Source of the DNA: Gammaproteobacteria bacterium 45_16_T64
GTDB taxonomy: Bacteria > Pseudomonadota > Gammaproteobacteria > Pseudomonadales > Ketobacteraceae
Reading direction: 5' to 3'
Length of the DNA: 64,000 nt
Assembly (NCBI GenBank): GCA_002162955.1
Contig: MABD01000018.1
Location: forward strand, 1 to 64,000
A program made the position numbers and the translations under genes. Below are positions 23,078 through 28,826 of this stretch, piece by piece. Position 1 is the first letter of the stretch. Each line of letters begins with the position of its first letter. Under the pieces are notes generated by a model that saw nothing but the letters and a program-made list of their open reading frames with translations, did not search any database and had not been told where the DNA came from.

Positions 23078-23935
23078 CTAGCTTGCAATCTTGATTCGCT
23101 CTAGCACTTTCTCCCCATACACTTCATTTAAAGATAGCTCCTTCAAATGTCTATATCCAATATAACAACCACATCTATTATTAGGACATAAATAGGTTGA
23201 CCTCAATATAGAATGCAACTCTTGCTCGTATATGTTTCCTAGCAGCTTCCCTACAAAGTGGCACGGCTTTGCATTACCCTCACCATCAACAGAGATAGCG
23301 GTACTCCCCGCGCGGCATTCTTTACCCAAGCTTGGGTGATATTGATTATTTAGATCAAATAGCGGGTCTACCTTGCGATAATATTCTATATCACCTTTAG
23401 TATAATGAAGAGGGTCATCTTTATACGCGTTAACCCAAAGATAAGTATCTGAGTTAAGTGCTCCTTTCAGTTGAGCTGCAATGGCTTGATTTTCATTCTT
23501 GCCCACAATGCCTACACTATACGCCACACCCAGTACATCTAGCTCCGACGTTTTTGATACGAATTTTTCGATCGTAGTTTCTGTAGGATGAAACGTTGTC
23601 CATAGCGCAACACTTTTTGCTTCGGCTTCCGCCAGCCATGTCACCGGGCAACTCAAATTGGTCTGAATCACCACTTTGGATACATGTGGCATATGCGACA
23701 AACGCACCATTGCCGCCCGATACCACTTACGAACCAAGGCCTCTCCCCAAGGGGTAATTAGGATTTGCATGTTGTCAACATCTTGCCTTTCACCGACCCA
23801 GTTCACAAAGCGCTCTAGAGCGTCTTTATCGATAGCTCTGGCACCAGCATCGTCGTGCTGTTTAGCAAAAGGGCAGTAACCACAGGCGTAATCACAGCTT
23901 GCCAACGGTCCTCGGTAAGTTATATCAATATTCAT
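23078..23935 (-). CDS. STM4011-family radical SAM protein with SPASM-like C-terminus
   Basis: 285 residues. The CX3CX2C radical SAM motif is C14-C18-C21 (CDYACGYC). The C-terminus holds five more Cys: 207, 225, 250, 255 and 257. The segment C207-RAG, then ISVDGEG, then PC225-HFVG and LLGN, closely resembles the SPASM domain that carries auxiliary Fe-S clusters in peptide-modifying enzymes such as PqqE and MftC. This gene matches the family named after Salmonella STM4011. Its start overlaps the stop of the STM4012 gene by 4 bp (ATGA). It is the last gene of the six-gene operon. The substrate is unknown; a peptide or protein is the best guess. Confidence 0.9.
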   Translation of the reverse strand: MNIDITYRGPLASCDYACGYCPFAKQHDDAGARAIDKDALERFVNWVGERQDVDNMQILITPWGEALVRKWYRAAMVRLSHMPHVSKVVIQTNLSCPVTWLAEAEAKSVALWTTFHPTETTIEKFVSKTSELDVLGVAYSVGIVGKNENQAIAAQLKGALNSDTYLWVNAYKDDPLHYTKGDIEYYRKVDPLFDLNNQYHPSLGKECRAGSTAISVDGEGNAKPCHFVGKLLGNIYEQELHSILRSTYLCPNNRCGCYIGYRHLKELSLNEVYGEKVLERIKIAS

Positions 23936-25275
23936 TTTAACTGATACTCTCGCATACGTTCTTTAACCGTATCTGACGCCAACCAAGGTCCAATGCTATC
24001 CGCCCGCTCAAGCCCTGCCGCCGTCAAGATAATCAGCGCCCCAGTTTTCACCGCGAGTCCCGCATCAACTAGCGTATTAAGTTGAACAAAATCCGTTGTA
24101 CTATCTGACCCAAATCGATTTGTATAAGCTGCGGTGCTCAAACCATCAACCGCTAATAGAGACTGCATTACAAAACGCCGCTTTTGCTCACTTTCACAAA
24201 GATTCACACCATAATGGGCCTTGGAAAAACTATCCTGTGGTTGGTCAATATAGTGCTCAATAATATCTTTGACACCATGGCGACCGACGGCATACTCCGA
24301 TGAATAATGCACCGTTTGTGTGTAAGAACGCGCTCCGGCCCCAAGCCCGAGCATACCGTCTTCCTGACAAGAGTACGTTGGTACTTCTCGCTCGGCGGCA
24401 TCATTGCGCCGAAACATTCGCATAGAAACTTGCTGGTAACCCTCTGCCAATAAAAAATCCCTGCCGACACGGTATAGCGCCAACATATCGGTATCAGACA
24501 GGTCCGTAGGGATACGCCTCTTGTCCGCCACTTTTCCCAATCCCGTTTTCTCGCGCACATAGAGTGGATACAGATATAGTTCCTCTGGGTTACAAAGCAA
24601 TGCTTGTTGCAAAGAATACAACCAAGACTCAACCGTTTGCCCCGCTATTCCATATATAAGATCAAGGTTCAAATCTGCGCGACTGTTGGCTCGAATTATT
24701 TCGATCGCGTCAAATACTTGAGTATGACTTTGCCGACGTGCCAACATTTGGGTTTCATCATGAGTAAAGGATTGTACTCCCATGCTAATGCGCGACACAC
24801 GCCTTTCTTCGAGCAAGCGAATTTTTTCAGCATCGATTGTATCCGGCGATGTTTCGATGCCAATCGGCATGTTGTTTTCCATACCACGGAAAGATGTCAG
24901 GTCGAATAAACGAGCCAACTGGGATGTTGTCAGATATGTTGGCGTACCTCCACCAATTGCGTATCGAGCAAATTGTGCGTGTCCGACTATAGGCTCAAGT
25001 GCTTGAATCTGTCTTTCCAACGCATCCAGATACAAGTCCGGCAATTCACCAGTAGGTCGCACCAACGTAAACAAATTGCAAAAACCACATCGCATTTCAC
25101 AAAACGGAATATGCACATAGAGAAATAGTGAATCCAGCTTCTCACGCTGCCATACACTTTTCAGCGAGACCGGTTCCTGAAGTGTCCTGTAGGATGTTTT
25201 GTGCGGGTAGGAATAGGAATACGCTTGATAAACCGGCCCGCCCAATATTTCCGTCAAAGTTTGCATGCTAGTCAT
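23932..25275 (-). CDS. STM4012-family radical SAM protein (HemW/HemN-like)
   Basis: 447 residues. The radical SAM Cys are C59-C63-C66 (HIPFCEMRCGFCN). The oxygen-independent coproporphyrinogen oxidase-like fold is indicated by AIGGGTPTYL, RISMGVQSF, NLDLIYGIAGQT and LGLGAGARSYT. The fourth Cys next to the motif seen in HemN is absent, so true HemN activity is unlikely; HemW-like methyltransferase or heme-handling relatives are closer. The start overlaps the end of the STM4013 gene by 8 bp, and the stop overlaps the STM4011 gene. This coupling with another radical SAM gene supports a two-step modification of one substrate. Confidence 0.9.
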   Translation of the reverse strand: MTSMQTLTEILGGPVYQAYSYSYPHKTSYRTLQEPVSLKSVWQREKLDSLFLYVHIPFCEMRCGFCNLFTLVRPTGELPDLYLDALERQIQALEPIVGHAQFARYAIGGGTPTYLTTSQLARLFDLTSFRGMENNMPIGIETSPDTIDAEKIRLLEERRVSRISMGVQSFTHDETQMLARRQSHTQVFDAIEIIRANSRADLNLDLIYGIAGQTVESWLYSLQQALLCNPEELYLYPLYVREKTGLGKVADKRRIPTDLSDTDMLALYRVGRDFLLAEGYQQVSMRMFRRNDAAEREVPTYSCQEDGMLGLGAGARSYTQTVHYSSEYAVGRHGVKDIIEHYIDQPQDSFSKAHYGVNLCESEQKRRFVMQSLLAVDGLSTAAYTNRFGSDSTTDFVQLNTLVDAGLAVKTGALIILTAAGLERADSIGPWLASDTVKERMREYQLK

Positions 25276-26086
25276 GTAAAATGGCCTCTTGAATAAACTC
25301 TACATAGGGCACTGTCCATACACAATCATGTGCGAGTCTGTGACCGGTATAACCATTTTCACCGTACGTAGTACCATGATCAGAACTCACAAAAAACAAT
25401 GTATTACGGCGTGTTCTGAAGGCCTCAAATAGGGGCTGGAGTTGGCTATCAACGTAGCGAAGTGCTGCTGCATGTGAATCTATATCGTCAGCACCCCCCT
25501 CCCCGATTGAATCTGTGTCATAAAAGTAGTTAGGTTGGTGTATTGCCGAAATATTGATAAACAAAAAAACACGCTGATCCGTCTTCAACCTACCAAGACT
25601 CACAAGTGCTTGCTGAATTTGGTGCTCAGTGGATGCTTCACAAGTAACCCCCATCTTTTCAGTCCAATGGCTTTCTTCAAATAAATCTGGGAGCACATTT
25701 CCGAGTGGAGTTTGTTTGTTGAAAAACCCCACCCCTCCAATACAAACAGTGTGATAACCCTCATTTGCCAACCCTTCAACGATAGTCGCCGCTTGGAAGC
25801 ATTTCGTATTTGGTGATATTGATGTGCTACCGGCAAATTCCACCGCCAATGGTCGTGGTGCCGCTGGGTTATCGATCGGCGTCGGAAAAAAACCGCTGAA
25901 GAATGCCTGGTGGGAAGCGTAAGTAAAGCTACCAGGGGAATGTCGTTGTTCCCATTGAGAAAAATATCGTCCAAGTACAGGTAACCGACCCGCCTTCCGC
26001 TCCTGGAAAGCAACATCATACCGCAAGGTATCAAGTGTCAAAAATACAATATCATAGTCCCCCACGATTCCATTCATGTTAAGCAT
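25268..26086 (-). CDS. STM4013-family alkaline-phosphatase-fold hydrolase
   Basis: 272 residues. The N-terminal VFLTLDTLRYDV (Asp19, Thr20) and the C-terminal DHG (236-238) with His249 and His253 fit the metal-binding core of the alkaline phosphatase/sulfatase superfamily. The Asp-Thr arrangement leaves Thr20 as a candidate nucleophile. There is no CxPxR motif needed for sulfatase formylglycine formation, so a phosphatase, phosphodiesterase or phosphotransferase is more likely. No signal peptide is present, unlike most relatives, which implies a cytoplasmic substrate. It overlaps the HAD gene by 13 bp and the STM4012 gene by 8 bp. Confidence 0.88.
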   Translation of the reverse strand: MLNMNGIVGDYDIVFLTLDTLRYDVAFQERKAGRLPVLGRYFSQWEQRHSPGSFTYASHQAFFSGFFPTPIDNPAAPRPLAVEFAGSTSISPNTKCFQAATIVEGLANEGYHTVCIGGVGFFNKQTPLGNVLPDLFEESHWTEKMGVTCEASTEHQIQQALVSLGRLKTDQRVFLFINISAIHQPNYFYDTDSIGEGGADDIDSHAAALRYVDSQLQPLFEAFRTRRNTLFFVSSDHGTTYGENGYTGHRLAHDCVWTVPYVEFIQEAILHD

Positions 26087-26736
26087 CTTAGTATGGCCTT
26101 CTCTACGTCTTTTATGTGGTTTATCTGATGGTGATAAGTTCCGATACCTCTATTTTCAGGTATACCAACTTCGACATTTTTATCTAACCAAATGCTACAT
26201 AACCCTATTTTTTTCGCTGGTTCAATATCTCTCACTGGATCATCACCCACCATAATACAATCGCAAGCGCTAACATCATATCTCTCTAACACGTGCTCAA
26301 AAATAGCAATATCAGGCTTACTGATGCCTAGCTCTCCCGATATAAAAATATCGCTAAATAGATGCTCGATCCCCGCATTGACCAACTTTCTGCGTTGCAT
26401 CGAGCTAGAACCATTACTCAATAGACACAATGTGTAATCACGCGATAAGCGAGCAAGCATTGCATTCACGCTATGGTTTTTGACCACATGAGCCGGCAAG
26501 CACTGAAAGCATCGCCATACTTCATCACTGCTTAGCCCCAACATCGGGTATTTACGCGAAAGATATTCACACAATTCAGCCCTGTCATTTCTGCCAGAAT
26601 CATCCTGAATTTTTACGTTCTCGATATCGACGATCTGAAAGTCACACCCTTGCTGTTGAAACATGCCTTTCAAGCAAAGTAAAAACGCAGCATCTCGATC
26701 TATAAGAGTATTATCTAAGTCAAAAATTATTAGCAT
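26074..26736 (-). CDS. HAD-family hydrolase inside the STM4011-4015 operon
   Basis: 220 residues. HAD motif I is FDLDNT (Asp6, Asp8), motif II LLSNGSS, the conserved Lys lies in GISKPD, and motif IV is GDDPVRDIEPA. A helical cap between motifs I and II fits the phosphoglycolate phosphatase/epoxide-hydrolase-like subgroup. The start overlaps the STM4014 gene by 7 bp and its end overlaps the STM4013 gene by 13 bp, so it is fully integrated in the operon. To my memory the named Salmonella set (STM4011-4015) does not include a HAD gene, so this may be a lineage-specific addition. Confidence 0.88.
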   Translation of the reverse strand: MLIIFDLDNTLIDRDAAFLLCLKGMFQQQGCDFQIVDIENVKIQDDSGRNDRAELCEYLSRKYPMLGLSSDEVWRCFQCLPAHVVKNHSVNAMLARLSRDYTLCLLSNGSSSMQRRKLVNAGIEHLFSDIFISGELGISKPDIAIFEHVLERYDVSACDCIMVGDDPVRDIEPAKKIGLCSIWLDKNVEVGIPENRGIGTYHHQINHIKDVEKAILRCLT

Positions 26737-27893
26737 GGTAAAAAATCGACTTGAGTTTCATAAGTATCTTTCGATTGATAATGAATACCAGGCAACAAAT
26801 CTCCAAACGCATTAAGCTCGATAATATGAGCACGGGAACGAGACGATGACAATATTATATCCGCACCAAAACACCCTGCACCAGAAGACAAAGAAGCGAC
26901 ATTTTCTGCACAATCATAGGCATTCTTAAGCATAAACGCCCCCGATTTATGGTGCAGAATATCACCACGCTGATTGCCTAGATGTAGATTAGTCATCGGG
27001 GTATTACTACAACGAGTAACATGGTGTGTGGCTTTGCCATTAATCACAACCACACGCAAATCGAAATTCTGTCCTTTTAACTGAGGTTTGGGTAGCCATT
27101 GCTCTATGTAAGCACCTTCTTCAAGAACCGTTGAATACAGTGCGGCAATATCCTTTTCTTTATGATAGGTCCTCACTTTTAAAGAGTTGTAACATTGCAC
27201 CACGCCATCAGTTTTCGATAATTCCAAAGAGGTTCTCGCGACACATTTACTGCCATCAGGTTTTACCCTCAGAGCAATAACACCCGTTGCAGAAGAGCCA
27301 TACTTCGGCTTAATGAACACACTGCATTGCTTAGTCATCCTGAGCTGATCAAGTAATGTTGTGACGTCCTCTGCCACAGGAATTAGCTTAGGTGTCGCGA
27401 CACCTCTTTGCGCTAGAAACTGCTGACAGCGATATTTGTCCAACATATTCAAGATTGCTGTGGGTTGATTTACATAACGAACAATACGTCCACTGGCCCT
27501 TGCCCAACAACTCAAGGCACAATCTATTTCCTTCAGCAAGAAACGATACCCAAAATACCATTCCTTTAGATATTTGAACCTACCCTTGTCATAGCGTAGT
27601 TTTTTTGCTGATTCAAGGTCAAGCCTCTTACTACCTTCTCTTGCCCCAAGAATAATTAGCGCTTTGGTAACCTCAAAACTTTCCCCAGGAGACTCTATCT
27701 TGAGATGTATATACTGATTTTTGATCGACTCCAGCTTTTTTACCAAGTATTCAACAGGGTTGCTTGCGCCCAATATATCAGCATAGCTAATCACAACGGG
27801 GAGTTTCCCCCGCTGCTTACGCAGAGCCTCGGTAAAGAAACGCTGGCGACGATTTTCTGGATTACAAATAAGAACCCAAGTAACAGACTGCAT
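26730..27893 (-). CDS. STM4014-family ATP-grasp protein
   Basis: 387 residues. The N-terminal part is specific to the family. From about residue 150, ATP-grasp features appear: QFLAQRGVATPKLI, VFIKPKYGSSATGVIAL (ATP-binding loop), FDLRVVVINGKATHHV, and the acidic metal site region GADIILSS with IIELNAFGDL. The pattern is closest to RimK/YheC-type ligases, which form amide or peptide bonds through an acyl phosphate. It lies 9 bp after the LRR gene and overlaps the HAD gene. In a peptide-modification model it would ligate or cyclise; the true substrate is unknown. Confidence 0.88.
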   Translation of the reverse strand: MQSVTWVLICNPENRRQRFFTEALRKQRGKLPVVISYADILGASNPVEYLVKKLESIKNQYIHLKIESPGESFEVTKALIILGAREGSKRLDLESAKKLRYDKGRFKYLKEWYFGYRFLLKEIDCALSCWARASGRIVRYVNQPTAILNMLDKYRCQQFLAQRGVATPKLIPVAEDVTTLLDQLRMTKQCSVFIKPKYGSSATGVIALRVKPDGSKCVARTSLELSKTDGVVQCYNSLKVRTYHKEKDIAALYSTVLEEGAYIEQWLPKPQLKGQNFDLRVVVINGKATHHVTRCSNTPMTNLHLGNQRGDILHHKSGAFMLKNAYDCAENVASLSSGAGCFGADIILSSSRSRAHIIELNAFGDLLPGIHYQSKDTYETQVDFLPC

Positions 27894-27902
27894 CGATGTT
27901 AA

Positions 27903-28826
27903 CTACTCGGAGACTTCAATATACCGTTCACCGTCATCATATTGTTCTTGACCGCTTAGATCTAGAGGAATAGCAAGAGCAGATAATTTCCCCATCATGT
28001 CATCGCTAAAATAATGGTGCGCCAAATTTAGCTTACTGAGATGGCGAAATTTATCAGCACTCGCAAGAATGGCCTCAGCGCCTTTATCAGAAATATTTCC
28101 CATCGATAAATCTAAGGTCTTGAGCTGACTCAAAAGTGAGCTAGTTGCAAGAAGTCCTGCTATTTCATCCGCTATTTCACTATTCTTTAACCCTAGAAAT
28201 TTTAAGGACGGTCGGCGTTCGACATTTAACAACGGCGCGATATCATCAACACTTCCATCCCAACCGTAATTCTCATCGCCAAGCCATAACTCCAGGTGCT
28301 CTAAAGAGGGCAAGTTTGCATTGGCAACGTGCTGAATAACATCAGTGCCTAGACCGCCAGTTTCAACAATAAGCGTTTTTAGGTTTTCGTGTTGGAACTC
28401 ACCCAAGCTAAGCCCTTCCATACCTCGTATTTGAACGTGTTCTAACTGAGGGTACGCAGGCCAAAAAGCACTGTAATCTCCTTGCTGAATCCAGGAAATT
28501 TCATTCTCTTCGTAGGTCATTTCTGCGAAAAACACCGCTTTTAGACTTGTAAATACACCCTTCTGTTGAACGAGCAAATCAATAAGTGGCTGAATACCTG
28601 TCTCAAACGCCTCCTCCCAAGCCCCAATGATCAATGCAGAAATATCTTTTGCCTTGGGATCAGCAGCGACAGCTTCCAATATTGAAAGTATCGTCTTTCC
28701 TTCATCGGCAGCCTCCCAATCAACTTCAATACGTAATGCCAACGATTCGTTCTTGATACCCGAGGAAGTATCAAATTGCTCCAATTCAAGCCCAAAAAAA
28801 GATTCTATATGGGAACCGATAGTCAT
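27903..28826 (-). CDS. STM4015-family leucine-rich-repeat protein
   Basis: 307 residues, no signal peptide, acidic. The second half holds several LRR-like units, for example LEHLELWLGDENYGW, LKFLGLKNSEIADEIAGLL, LKTLDLSMGNISDKGAEAIL and LSKLNLAHHYFSDDMM. The first 130 residues are a family-specific domain. It is the first gene of the six-gene operon, with a GGAGATAAAGG ribosome binding site. An LRR protein inside a cytoplasmic enzyme cluster could be a scaffold, a substrate-recognition partner, or the modified substrate itself. None of these can be decided from sequence alone. Confidence 0.88.
   Translation of the reverse strand: MTIGSHIESFFGLELEQFDTSSGIKNESLALRIEVDWEAADEGKTILSILEAVAADPKAKDISALIIGAWEEAFETGIQPLIDLLVQQKGVFTSLKAVFFAEMTYEENEISWIQQGDYSAFWPAYPQLEHVQIRGMEGLSLGEFQHENLKTLIVETGGLGTDVIQHVANANLPSLEHLELWLGDENYGWDGSVDDIAPLLNVERRPSLKFLGLKNSEIADEIAGLLATSSLLSQLKTLDLSMGNISDKGAEAILASADKFRHLSKLNLAHHYFSDDMMGKLSALAIPLDLSGQEQYDDGERYIEVSE

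Follow-up and report, generated by a model that had tools for sequence, protein, structure and literature searches.

The window analysed here is the whole 64,000-nucleotide stretch of contig MABD01000018.1 (positions 1 to 64,000) from Gammaproteobacteria bacterium 45_16_T64. Its minus strand carries, from 28826 to 23078, the six-gene operon STM4015-STM4014-HAD-STM4013-STM4012-STM4011, as read from open reading frames (ORFs) and sequence. This operon is probably a post-translational modification cassette (rough probability 0.55) whose substrate is STM4015, the product of the operon's own first gene. What is new here is that STM4015, a leucine-rich-repeat (LRR) protein, itself looks like the substrate, with its terminal Glu as the site. 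A first-pass annotation of the window had treated the LRR protein as either scaffold or substrate; on the near-invariant C-terminal Glu, the choice now leans towards substrate. With the terminal residue named as the probable site, the reading of this unassigned family can be tested by weighing a single peptide.

The C-terminal tail of STM4015

27903..28826, minus strand: STM4015-family leucine-rich-repeat protein, 307 amino acids, net charge -32, NCBIfam NF038076 at 318 bits (cut-off 275); proposed substrate or carrier
27906..27962, minus strand: C-terminal tail of STM4015, acidic linker followed by RYIEVSE; codon of the terminal Glu307 at 27908-27906

Homologues were collected from 90 loci (L026-L115). 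Counts out of 80 refer to the contig loci kept from a scan with an STM4013 alignment, which matched at least 570 stretches; these 80 are the best matches, nearest to the window protein, which tilts the sample towards close relatives.

The last residue was Glu in all 12 STM4015 proteins of the first alignment. Across the 90 loci, 117 of 120 STM4015 homologue ORFs (above 100 bits, with a stop codon) end in Glu; the other endings (G, Y and D) belong to extra paralogues in L039, L055 and L103. Every complete operon with a single STM4015 gene encodes a Glu-terminated protein (52/52), and at least one Glu-ending copy is present in each of the 81 loci with any STM4015. When the window protein is included, position -1 is Glu in 118 of 121 proteins, -3 is Val in 102, -6 is Tyr in 104 and -7 is Arg in 107; the tail consensus is R-Y-[VCI]-[AS]-V-x-E (RYxAVxE). 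The stretch before the motif is acidic, with a mean of 35% Asp plus Glu at -26 to -8, and varies in length and sequence. The whole protein is acidic as well (median net charge -28 in 120 homologues). STM4015 therefore has the LysW-type carrier trait of a C-terminal Glu in an acidic extension (118/121). The last residues of the other five operon proteins (STM4014, HAD, STM4013, STM4012 and STM4011) are scattered.

A relative of STM4015 has a solved structure, PDB 2ra8 from Bacteroides fragilis (Q64V53, E 1.9e-100), which is named just 'uncharacterized'. Its tail ends in Glu at residue 354; the chain of 362 residues runs eight residues further, so its C-terminus is probably tagged.

Chemistry on the tail Tyr, of the kind found in pyrroloquinoline quinone (PQQ) or mycofactocin maturation, was rejected as the principal explanation: 10 of the 52 complete operons with one STM4015 gene have another residue at -6, whereas all 52 have the terminal Glu. 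The residues at -6 are Tyr (42), Phe (5), Ser (3), Met (1) and Asn (1). Where Ser, Met or Asn stands at -6 (five proteins), a Tyr is found two positions before it; the 16 residues examined contain no Tyr in any of the five Phe proteins. Graspetide-like ring closure was also rejected, as the tail has no conserved nucleophile (Ser, Thr or Lys).

The ATP-grasp protein STM4014

26730..27893, minus strand: STM4014-family ATP-grasp protein, 387 amino acids, NF038074 at 328 bits (cut-off 175); proposed ligase on Glu307

STM4014 scores over the cut-off of the Pfam ATPgrasp_YheCD and RimK domains (24.0 against 21 for the RimK domain) and has invariant or near-invariant residues at K153, K195, E264, D278, R280, D345, E359 and N361. 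It is an ATP-grasp protein by fold and by its Lys, Lys, Glu, Asp and Glu-x-Asn residues, which are the nucleotide- and Mg-binding residues of ATP-grasp enzymes. It is not a member of the RimK family, which has an NCBIfam cut-off of 143.4 bits; STM4014 scores 31.5.

No sequence relative of STM4014 was found in the PDB at E up to 0.01. Its AlphaFold2 model has a mean pLDDT of 94.1 and a pTM of 0.92. The first Foldseek match of this model is ArgX with LysW, Glu and ADP (3vpb; E 1.8e-11, TM-scores 0.53/0.70), followed by PsnB with its precursor, LysX/ArgX with LysW-gamma-AAA, and RimK. ArgX, PsnB, LysX and RimK are all ligases acting on Glu of a protein or peptide, and STM4014 is accordingly the candidate modifier of STM4015 in our reading.

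A terminal Glu behind a variable acidic linker would also suit conjugation to other proteins, with the LRR domain picking the target. Pup attaches through its C-terminal Glu, according to the available part of one source (PMC3511204). Several LRR paralogues per enzyme set would fit such a role too. Conjugation is nevertheless very improbable: STM4014 is an ATP-grasp protein whereas the Pup ligase is glutamine-synthetase-like, and the Pfam and NCBIfam matches listed for the six proteins include no PafA/Dop-type ligase. Conjugation would also give the two radical SAM enzymes and the hydrolase nothing to do. In addition, STM4015 is not clearly more variable than STM4014; mean column identity is 38% for STM4015 (12 sequences), 39% for STM4014 (39) and 58% for STM4013 (8).

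Co-occurrence of STM4014 and STM4015 across genomes

Family cut-offs were applied to 150 genomes from the family of the actinomycete Yinghuangia soli. STM4014 and STM4015 occur together in 73 genomes, STM4015 alone in six and neither in 71; all 73 genomes with STM4014 also have STM4015. The six STM4015-only genomes lack STM4011; STM4013 is over the cut-off in two of them and present as a fragment in one.

The STM4015 tails of all 79 genomes with this protein were compared. In the 73 genomes with both proteins, 116 of 118 STM4015 copies read end in Glu and every genome has at least one such copy; the two non-Glu copies match weakly, at 103 and 215 bits. In the six genomes without STM4014 and STM4011, Glu ends 4 of 6 copies (Fisher p 0.011, from a small sample of related copies and uncorrected for relatedness). 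One of the two losses is a change of Glu to Asp with the Tyr also lost, the other a truncation; in a third orphan, Glu is kept and Tyr has become His.

Ten further genomes, those whose locus lacked partner genes, were searched. The three with a solitary STM4013 (L083, L105 and L108) have neither STM4014 nor STM4015. Both are present in the other seven; STM4014 of L112 is partial and below the cut-off, and in three of the seven the STM4015 matches are below the cut-off. In L083 and L105 the solitary STM4013 adjoins a class I/II aminotransferase gene on the opposite strand.

Searches for the tail and for a precursor peptide

A loose tail pattern matched 4 of 7066 other ORFs of at least 60 amino acids in the 90 loci, the L063 protein described below being one of the four. 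DNA searches with a tail pattern covered ten and then four operon-bearing genomes; from the ten-genome search, the matches read were those in its 30 loci and in 20 fetched stretches, partly the same places. The long ORFs with the motif among these matches were STM4015 proteins, except for a pentapeptide-repeat protein in L063 and two chance-like ORFs (104 amino acids in L118 and 503 in L122) with no acidic stretch before the motif. In the 20 fetched stretches, 17 motif matches lay in ORFs of 78 amino acids or fewer and three were STM4015 paralogues. In Yinghuangia and Calothrix, STM4015 proteins encoded far from the operon have the tail too. A stricter pattern gave two matches in 292 genomes of Nostoc's phylum, neither in a long ORF (L167, and L166, which ends in TGG rather than a stop codon).

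The idea that the tail is a general tag on many proteins was rejected, as the long motif ORFs read were nearly all STM4015. The pentapeptide-repeat protein (L063:5476-5988, minus strand) carries the whole acidic tail, ending in HRYELVGE, and adjoins two STM4015 genes.

The first-pass annotation had seen no precursor peptide, and this holds among the neighbour clusters covered here. ORFs of at least about 40 amino acids that do not overlap known genes were clustered in the 90 loci, and the 40 largest clusters were examined. No separate short precursor was recognised among them; they are mostly near-identical Janthinobacterium DNA, and a rare small ORF may have escaped. The clusters that span lineages are HTH regulator-like (12 loci), ATP-binding cassette (ABC) transporter ATPase-like (10 loci) and two mixed clusters of eight loci each. 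As for a precursor of the graspetide type, or of other ribosomally synthesised and post-translationally modified peptides, a protein of about 100 amino acids occurs in 28 of 80 loci, and no precursor family was recognised in the 40 clusters. If STM4015 carries the modified residue, no separate precursor is needed.

Proposed mechanism

STM4014 would use ATP to convert the terminal Glu of STM4015 into an acyl phosphate, at the gamma- or alpha-carboxylate, and would join an amine-bearing group to the activated Glu. The HemN-like STM4012 and the SPASM-like STM4011 would then modify the attached group, while phospho-transfer or hydrolysis would fall to STM4013 and, where present, the HAD protein. 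The enzymes would recognise STM4015 by its conserved RYxAV and acidic linker. The group would stay on the LRR protein rather than be released; retention is favoured because no peptidase is recognisable in the operon and one enzyme set often serves several STM4015 paralogues. At least two STM4015 genes are found in 22 of 80 loci, with up to five in one locus (that genome has eight STM4015 matches).

Release would make STM4015 a true carrier, with a small molecule built on its C-terminal Glu and then set free, as on LysW in lysine and arginine synthesis. This is rather unlikely. The C-terminal Glu, the acidity of STM4015 and an ATP-grasp protein with a predicted fold like ArgX/LysX all suit a carrier, and enzymes are present for several successive steps. 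However, none of the six proteins has a Pfam or NCBIfam match to a peptidase family, and a metabolite pathway would not need as many as five paralogues for one enzyme set. Ten of the 90 loci do contain the ABC-transporter ATPase family (median distance 2.7 kb), but it looks general.

Retention can be extended, tentatively, to a wider picture: STM4015 may be a class of LRR proteins with a covalent prosthetic group, made by radical SAM enzymes, on the C-terminal Glu. One cassette might then decorate several paralogues with the same group, in trans as well, by way of an acidic RYxAVxE tail that is portable, and each protein's LRR part would set its binding partner.

Evidence against modification of the terminal Glu

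Several points weigh against STM4015 as the modified protein. Modification of the Glu is predicted from sequence and a predicted fold. The TM-scores of STM4014 are moderate, and PPIP5K kinases and Ddl ligases match closely behind the ligases named above, so the predicted fold does not fix the substrate. Carrier-like electrostatic pairing is weak; STM4014 has a net charge of +18 in the window, but its homologues are only slightly basic (median +2 in 79). The AlphaFold2 model of STM4015 and STM4014 joined as one chain has a pTM of 0.59. The strict motif is found in 96 of 118 copies with partners and in 3 of 6 orphans, which is no significant difference (p 0.096), and those three orphans keep the whole motif without STM4014 and STM4011. 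Finally, a fixed last residue is not proof by itself because two neighbour families also have one: a protein of about 100 amino acids ends in Asp (34/34) and DUF6745 in Thr (33/35). STM4015 differs from these neighbours in that its fixed Glu comes after a variable acidic linker.

The orphans and the two neighbour families also speak for the tail as a structural or docking element, with the enzymes acting on a small molecule and STM4015 only binding the enzymes or the product. Tail residues 311-320 of the joined model have a mean pLDDT of 87, as if docked. Even so, this reading is unlikely: the linker ahead of the motif differs between proteins in both length and sequence but the final residue stays the same, the pentapeptide-repeat protein carries the same tail, and terminal Glu is lost in two of the six genomes without STM4014. 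Modification of STM4015 at this Glu remains the preferred reading.

Radical SAM enzymes, STM4013 and the HAD protein

26074..26736, minus strand: HAD-IA phosphatase, accessory; HAD_2 at 78 bits
25268..26086, minus strand: STM4013-family alkaline-phosphatase-superfamily hydrolase; NF038075 at 374 bits (cut-off 250), Sulfatase at 49 bits
23932..25275, minus strand: STM4012-family HemN-like radical SAM enzyme; NF006067 at 566 bits (cut-off 380)
23078..23935, minus strand: STM4011-family radical SAM enzyme with SPASM-like C-terminus; NF038073 at 367 bits (cut-off 200), SPASM at 21.6 bits

STM4012 has invariant C59, C63 and C66, and its PDB relatives are HemN (1olt) and the radical SAM methyltransferase NocN (9p2u). 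In STM4011 the Cys residues of the CxxxCxxC motif (C14, C18 and C21) are invariant, as are C207, C225, C250, C255 and C257; a PDB sequence search at E up to 0.1 gave no relative.

The invariant residues of STM4013 are D19, T55, D213, D236, H237 and H249. Sulfatases have Cys or Ser where STM4013 has Thr; the invariant Thr argues for phospho- rather than sulfo-chemistry. Against this, STM4013 overlaps by 4 bp the gene for a bifunctional ATP sulfurylase/APS kinase in two Myxococcota loci (L074:602-3066 and L095:1371-3826), which hints at a possible link between the STM4013 substrate and activated sulfate or adenylyl chemistry.

The HAD protein passed only general HAD models (HAD-IA v1 and v3, HAD-IIIA) among the 25 of 36 matches shown. 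The first-pass annotation had counted it as a pathway member. It is present in the operon, but a HAD protein of the window type occurs in 19 of 80 loci and is accessory rather than core. Salmonella has a different type, a Cof-type HAD-IIB gene behind STM4011.

Operon layout and promoter region

28899-28894, minus strand: TATAAT hexamer about 70 bp upstream of STM4015, read from the sequence; no -35 box detected

The six genes, in order from STM4015, are separated by a 9-bp gap and then by overlaps of 7, 13, 8 and 4 bp, so that ORF positions bear out the layout first described. The enzyme and LRR family assignments made at the same time agree with the Pfam and NCBIfam matches: five of the proteins exceed the curated NCBIfam cut-offs for STM4011 to STM4015, and the operon is by this definition an STM4011-STM4015 system.

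A consensus -10 box had also been reported before the first gene. The hexamer is there; a promoter scan found no -35 paired with it, and promoter-like sites in the region are not enriched (10 found; shuffles gave a mean of 13.0, standard deviation 3.7). For both reasons an operon promoter is not supported. Of the modification pathway as first proposed, the conserved system and its families have held up and the promoter has not; the LRR protein has moved towards substrate.

A role in anti-phage defence was rejected. PADLOC gave just one weak match, of STM4012 to a candidate model (26.9 bits), and none for seven other proteins scanned.

Distribution and neighbouring genes

The STM4011-STM4015 genes and their optional neighbours form a single system that occurs here and there across many phyla. 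All five STM families are found in 64 of 80 loci, and in 45 of the 50 loci longer than 20 kb; gene-neighbourhood conservation, the check suggested for the first-pass annotation, is therefore strong. The order 4015-4014-4013-4012-4011 on one strand is kept in 57 of 80 loci. By family, STM4014 is present in 70 of the 80, STM4015 in 71, STM4012 in 72 and STM4011 in 71. Besides the HAD gene, the optional neighbours are DUF6745 (29 loci) and the protein of about 100 amino acids.

STM4015 over the family cut-off was found only in the genome of the window itself, among 398 in the phylum, and STM4013 likewise among 57 relatives. The annotated set occurs in a plasmid collection in Methylobacterium, Paenibacillus, Deinococcus, Salmonella and Streptomyces, and partially in Bacteroides; the Salmonella operon has no near match in E. 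coli genomes. The evidence for horizontal transfer is this patchy distribution, not base composition: the GC content of the operon (about 0.45) equals that of its surroundings, and the operon is not marked as foreign.

DUF6745 (PF20530) and the His-rich protein of about 100 amino acids are a recurrent pair beside the operon, both being present in 28 of 80 loci. Their hosts are Actinomycetota, Deinococcus, Chloroflexota, Planctomycetes, Verrucomicrobia and Methylobacterium (L026, L028, L029, L033-L035 and 29 of the 80 contig loci). One of two DUF6745 proteins scanned has an LRR part; the smaller protein had no Pfam or NCBIfam match in two scanned.

Some loci are unusual. In a Bacteroides finegoldii record (L032:8814-10757), only short ORF pieces of STM4013 and STM4012 are seen, with STM4015/STM4014 on one side and a long STM4011 on the other. 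The Salmonella Infantis record pCFSAN003307 (L030) is labelled a plasmid and holds glnA, glnL and typA as well as the STM4011-STM4015 region; these genes are presumably chromosomal. In the cyanobacterial loci L041, L043 and L046, proteins encoded among the STM4015 genes start with a DAVLGG..PPP..GVVLGG-like stretch, which is also seen at the N-terminus of cyanobacterial STM4015 proteins.

Literature and significance

No function or product of STM4011-STM4015 was found in the open literature searched (subscription papers and preprints were outside its scope), in line with the earlier statement that none is established. The same literature held no functional study of DUF6745, of 2ra8 or of a combination of ATP-grasp, radical SAM and leucine-rich repeat. 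Two papers name one of the genes a single time, in a table: a sigma54-binding place at STM4013 (PMC3844500) and branch-specific positive selection on STM4015 in serovar Typhi at q 0.069 (PMC2784778).

The system is thus widespread and unstudied, with at least 570 stretches carrying an STM4013 relative in one genome collection and no function found in print. If our reading holds, ATP-grasp tagging of a terminal Glu and radical SAM maturation come together on an interaction-domain protein that ranges from Salmonella to cyanobacteria.

Comparison with known systems

The STM4014/STM4015 pair is proposed to work like an amino-group carrier protein or like RimK and S6, while belonging to neither family. 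In amino-group carrier proteins, activation takes place at the gamma-carboxylate of the C-terminal Glu and the enzymes use charge contacts, according to the available part of one source (PMC9303977). STM4015 shares with LysW/ArgW an acidic C-terminal extension ending in Glu, and its partner has a predicted fold similar to LysX/ArgX (3vpb). In contrast to LysW-type carriers, which are small proteins with a zinc-binding N-terminal domain, STM4015 is an LRR protein of 307 amino acids. It is accompanied by radical SAM enzymes and hydrolases, with no recognisable release peptidase among them.

RimK is an ATP-grasp enzyme that acts at the C-terminal Glu of S6, and what it makes remains attached to S6. 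The Foldseek matches of STM4014 include RimK structures. The differences are the low score of STM4014 against the RimK family (31.5 bits, cut-off 143.4) and the nature of S6, which is not an LRR protein and has no radical SAM partners.

The graspetide ligase PsnB, which acts on acidic side chains of a peptide, shares the ATP-grasp fold and ranks second in Foldseek. PsnB graspetides differ in two respects: no short precursor was found among the clusters examined, and the STM4015 tail is without a conserved Ser, Thr or Lys.

Pearlin pathways, which use peptide aminoacyl-tRNA ligases, differ in having a loading enzyme from a different family and a protease in the cluster. As far as the available part of the source goes, they share with the proposed mechanism the addition of a residue to the C-terminus of a carrier and its alteration there, once by a radical SAM enzyme (PMC9303977).

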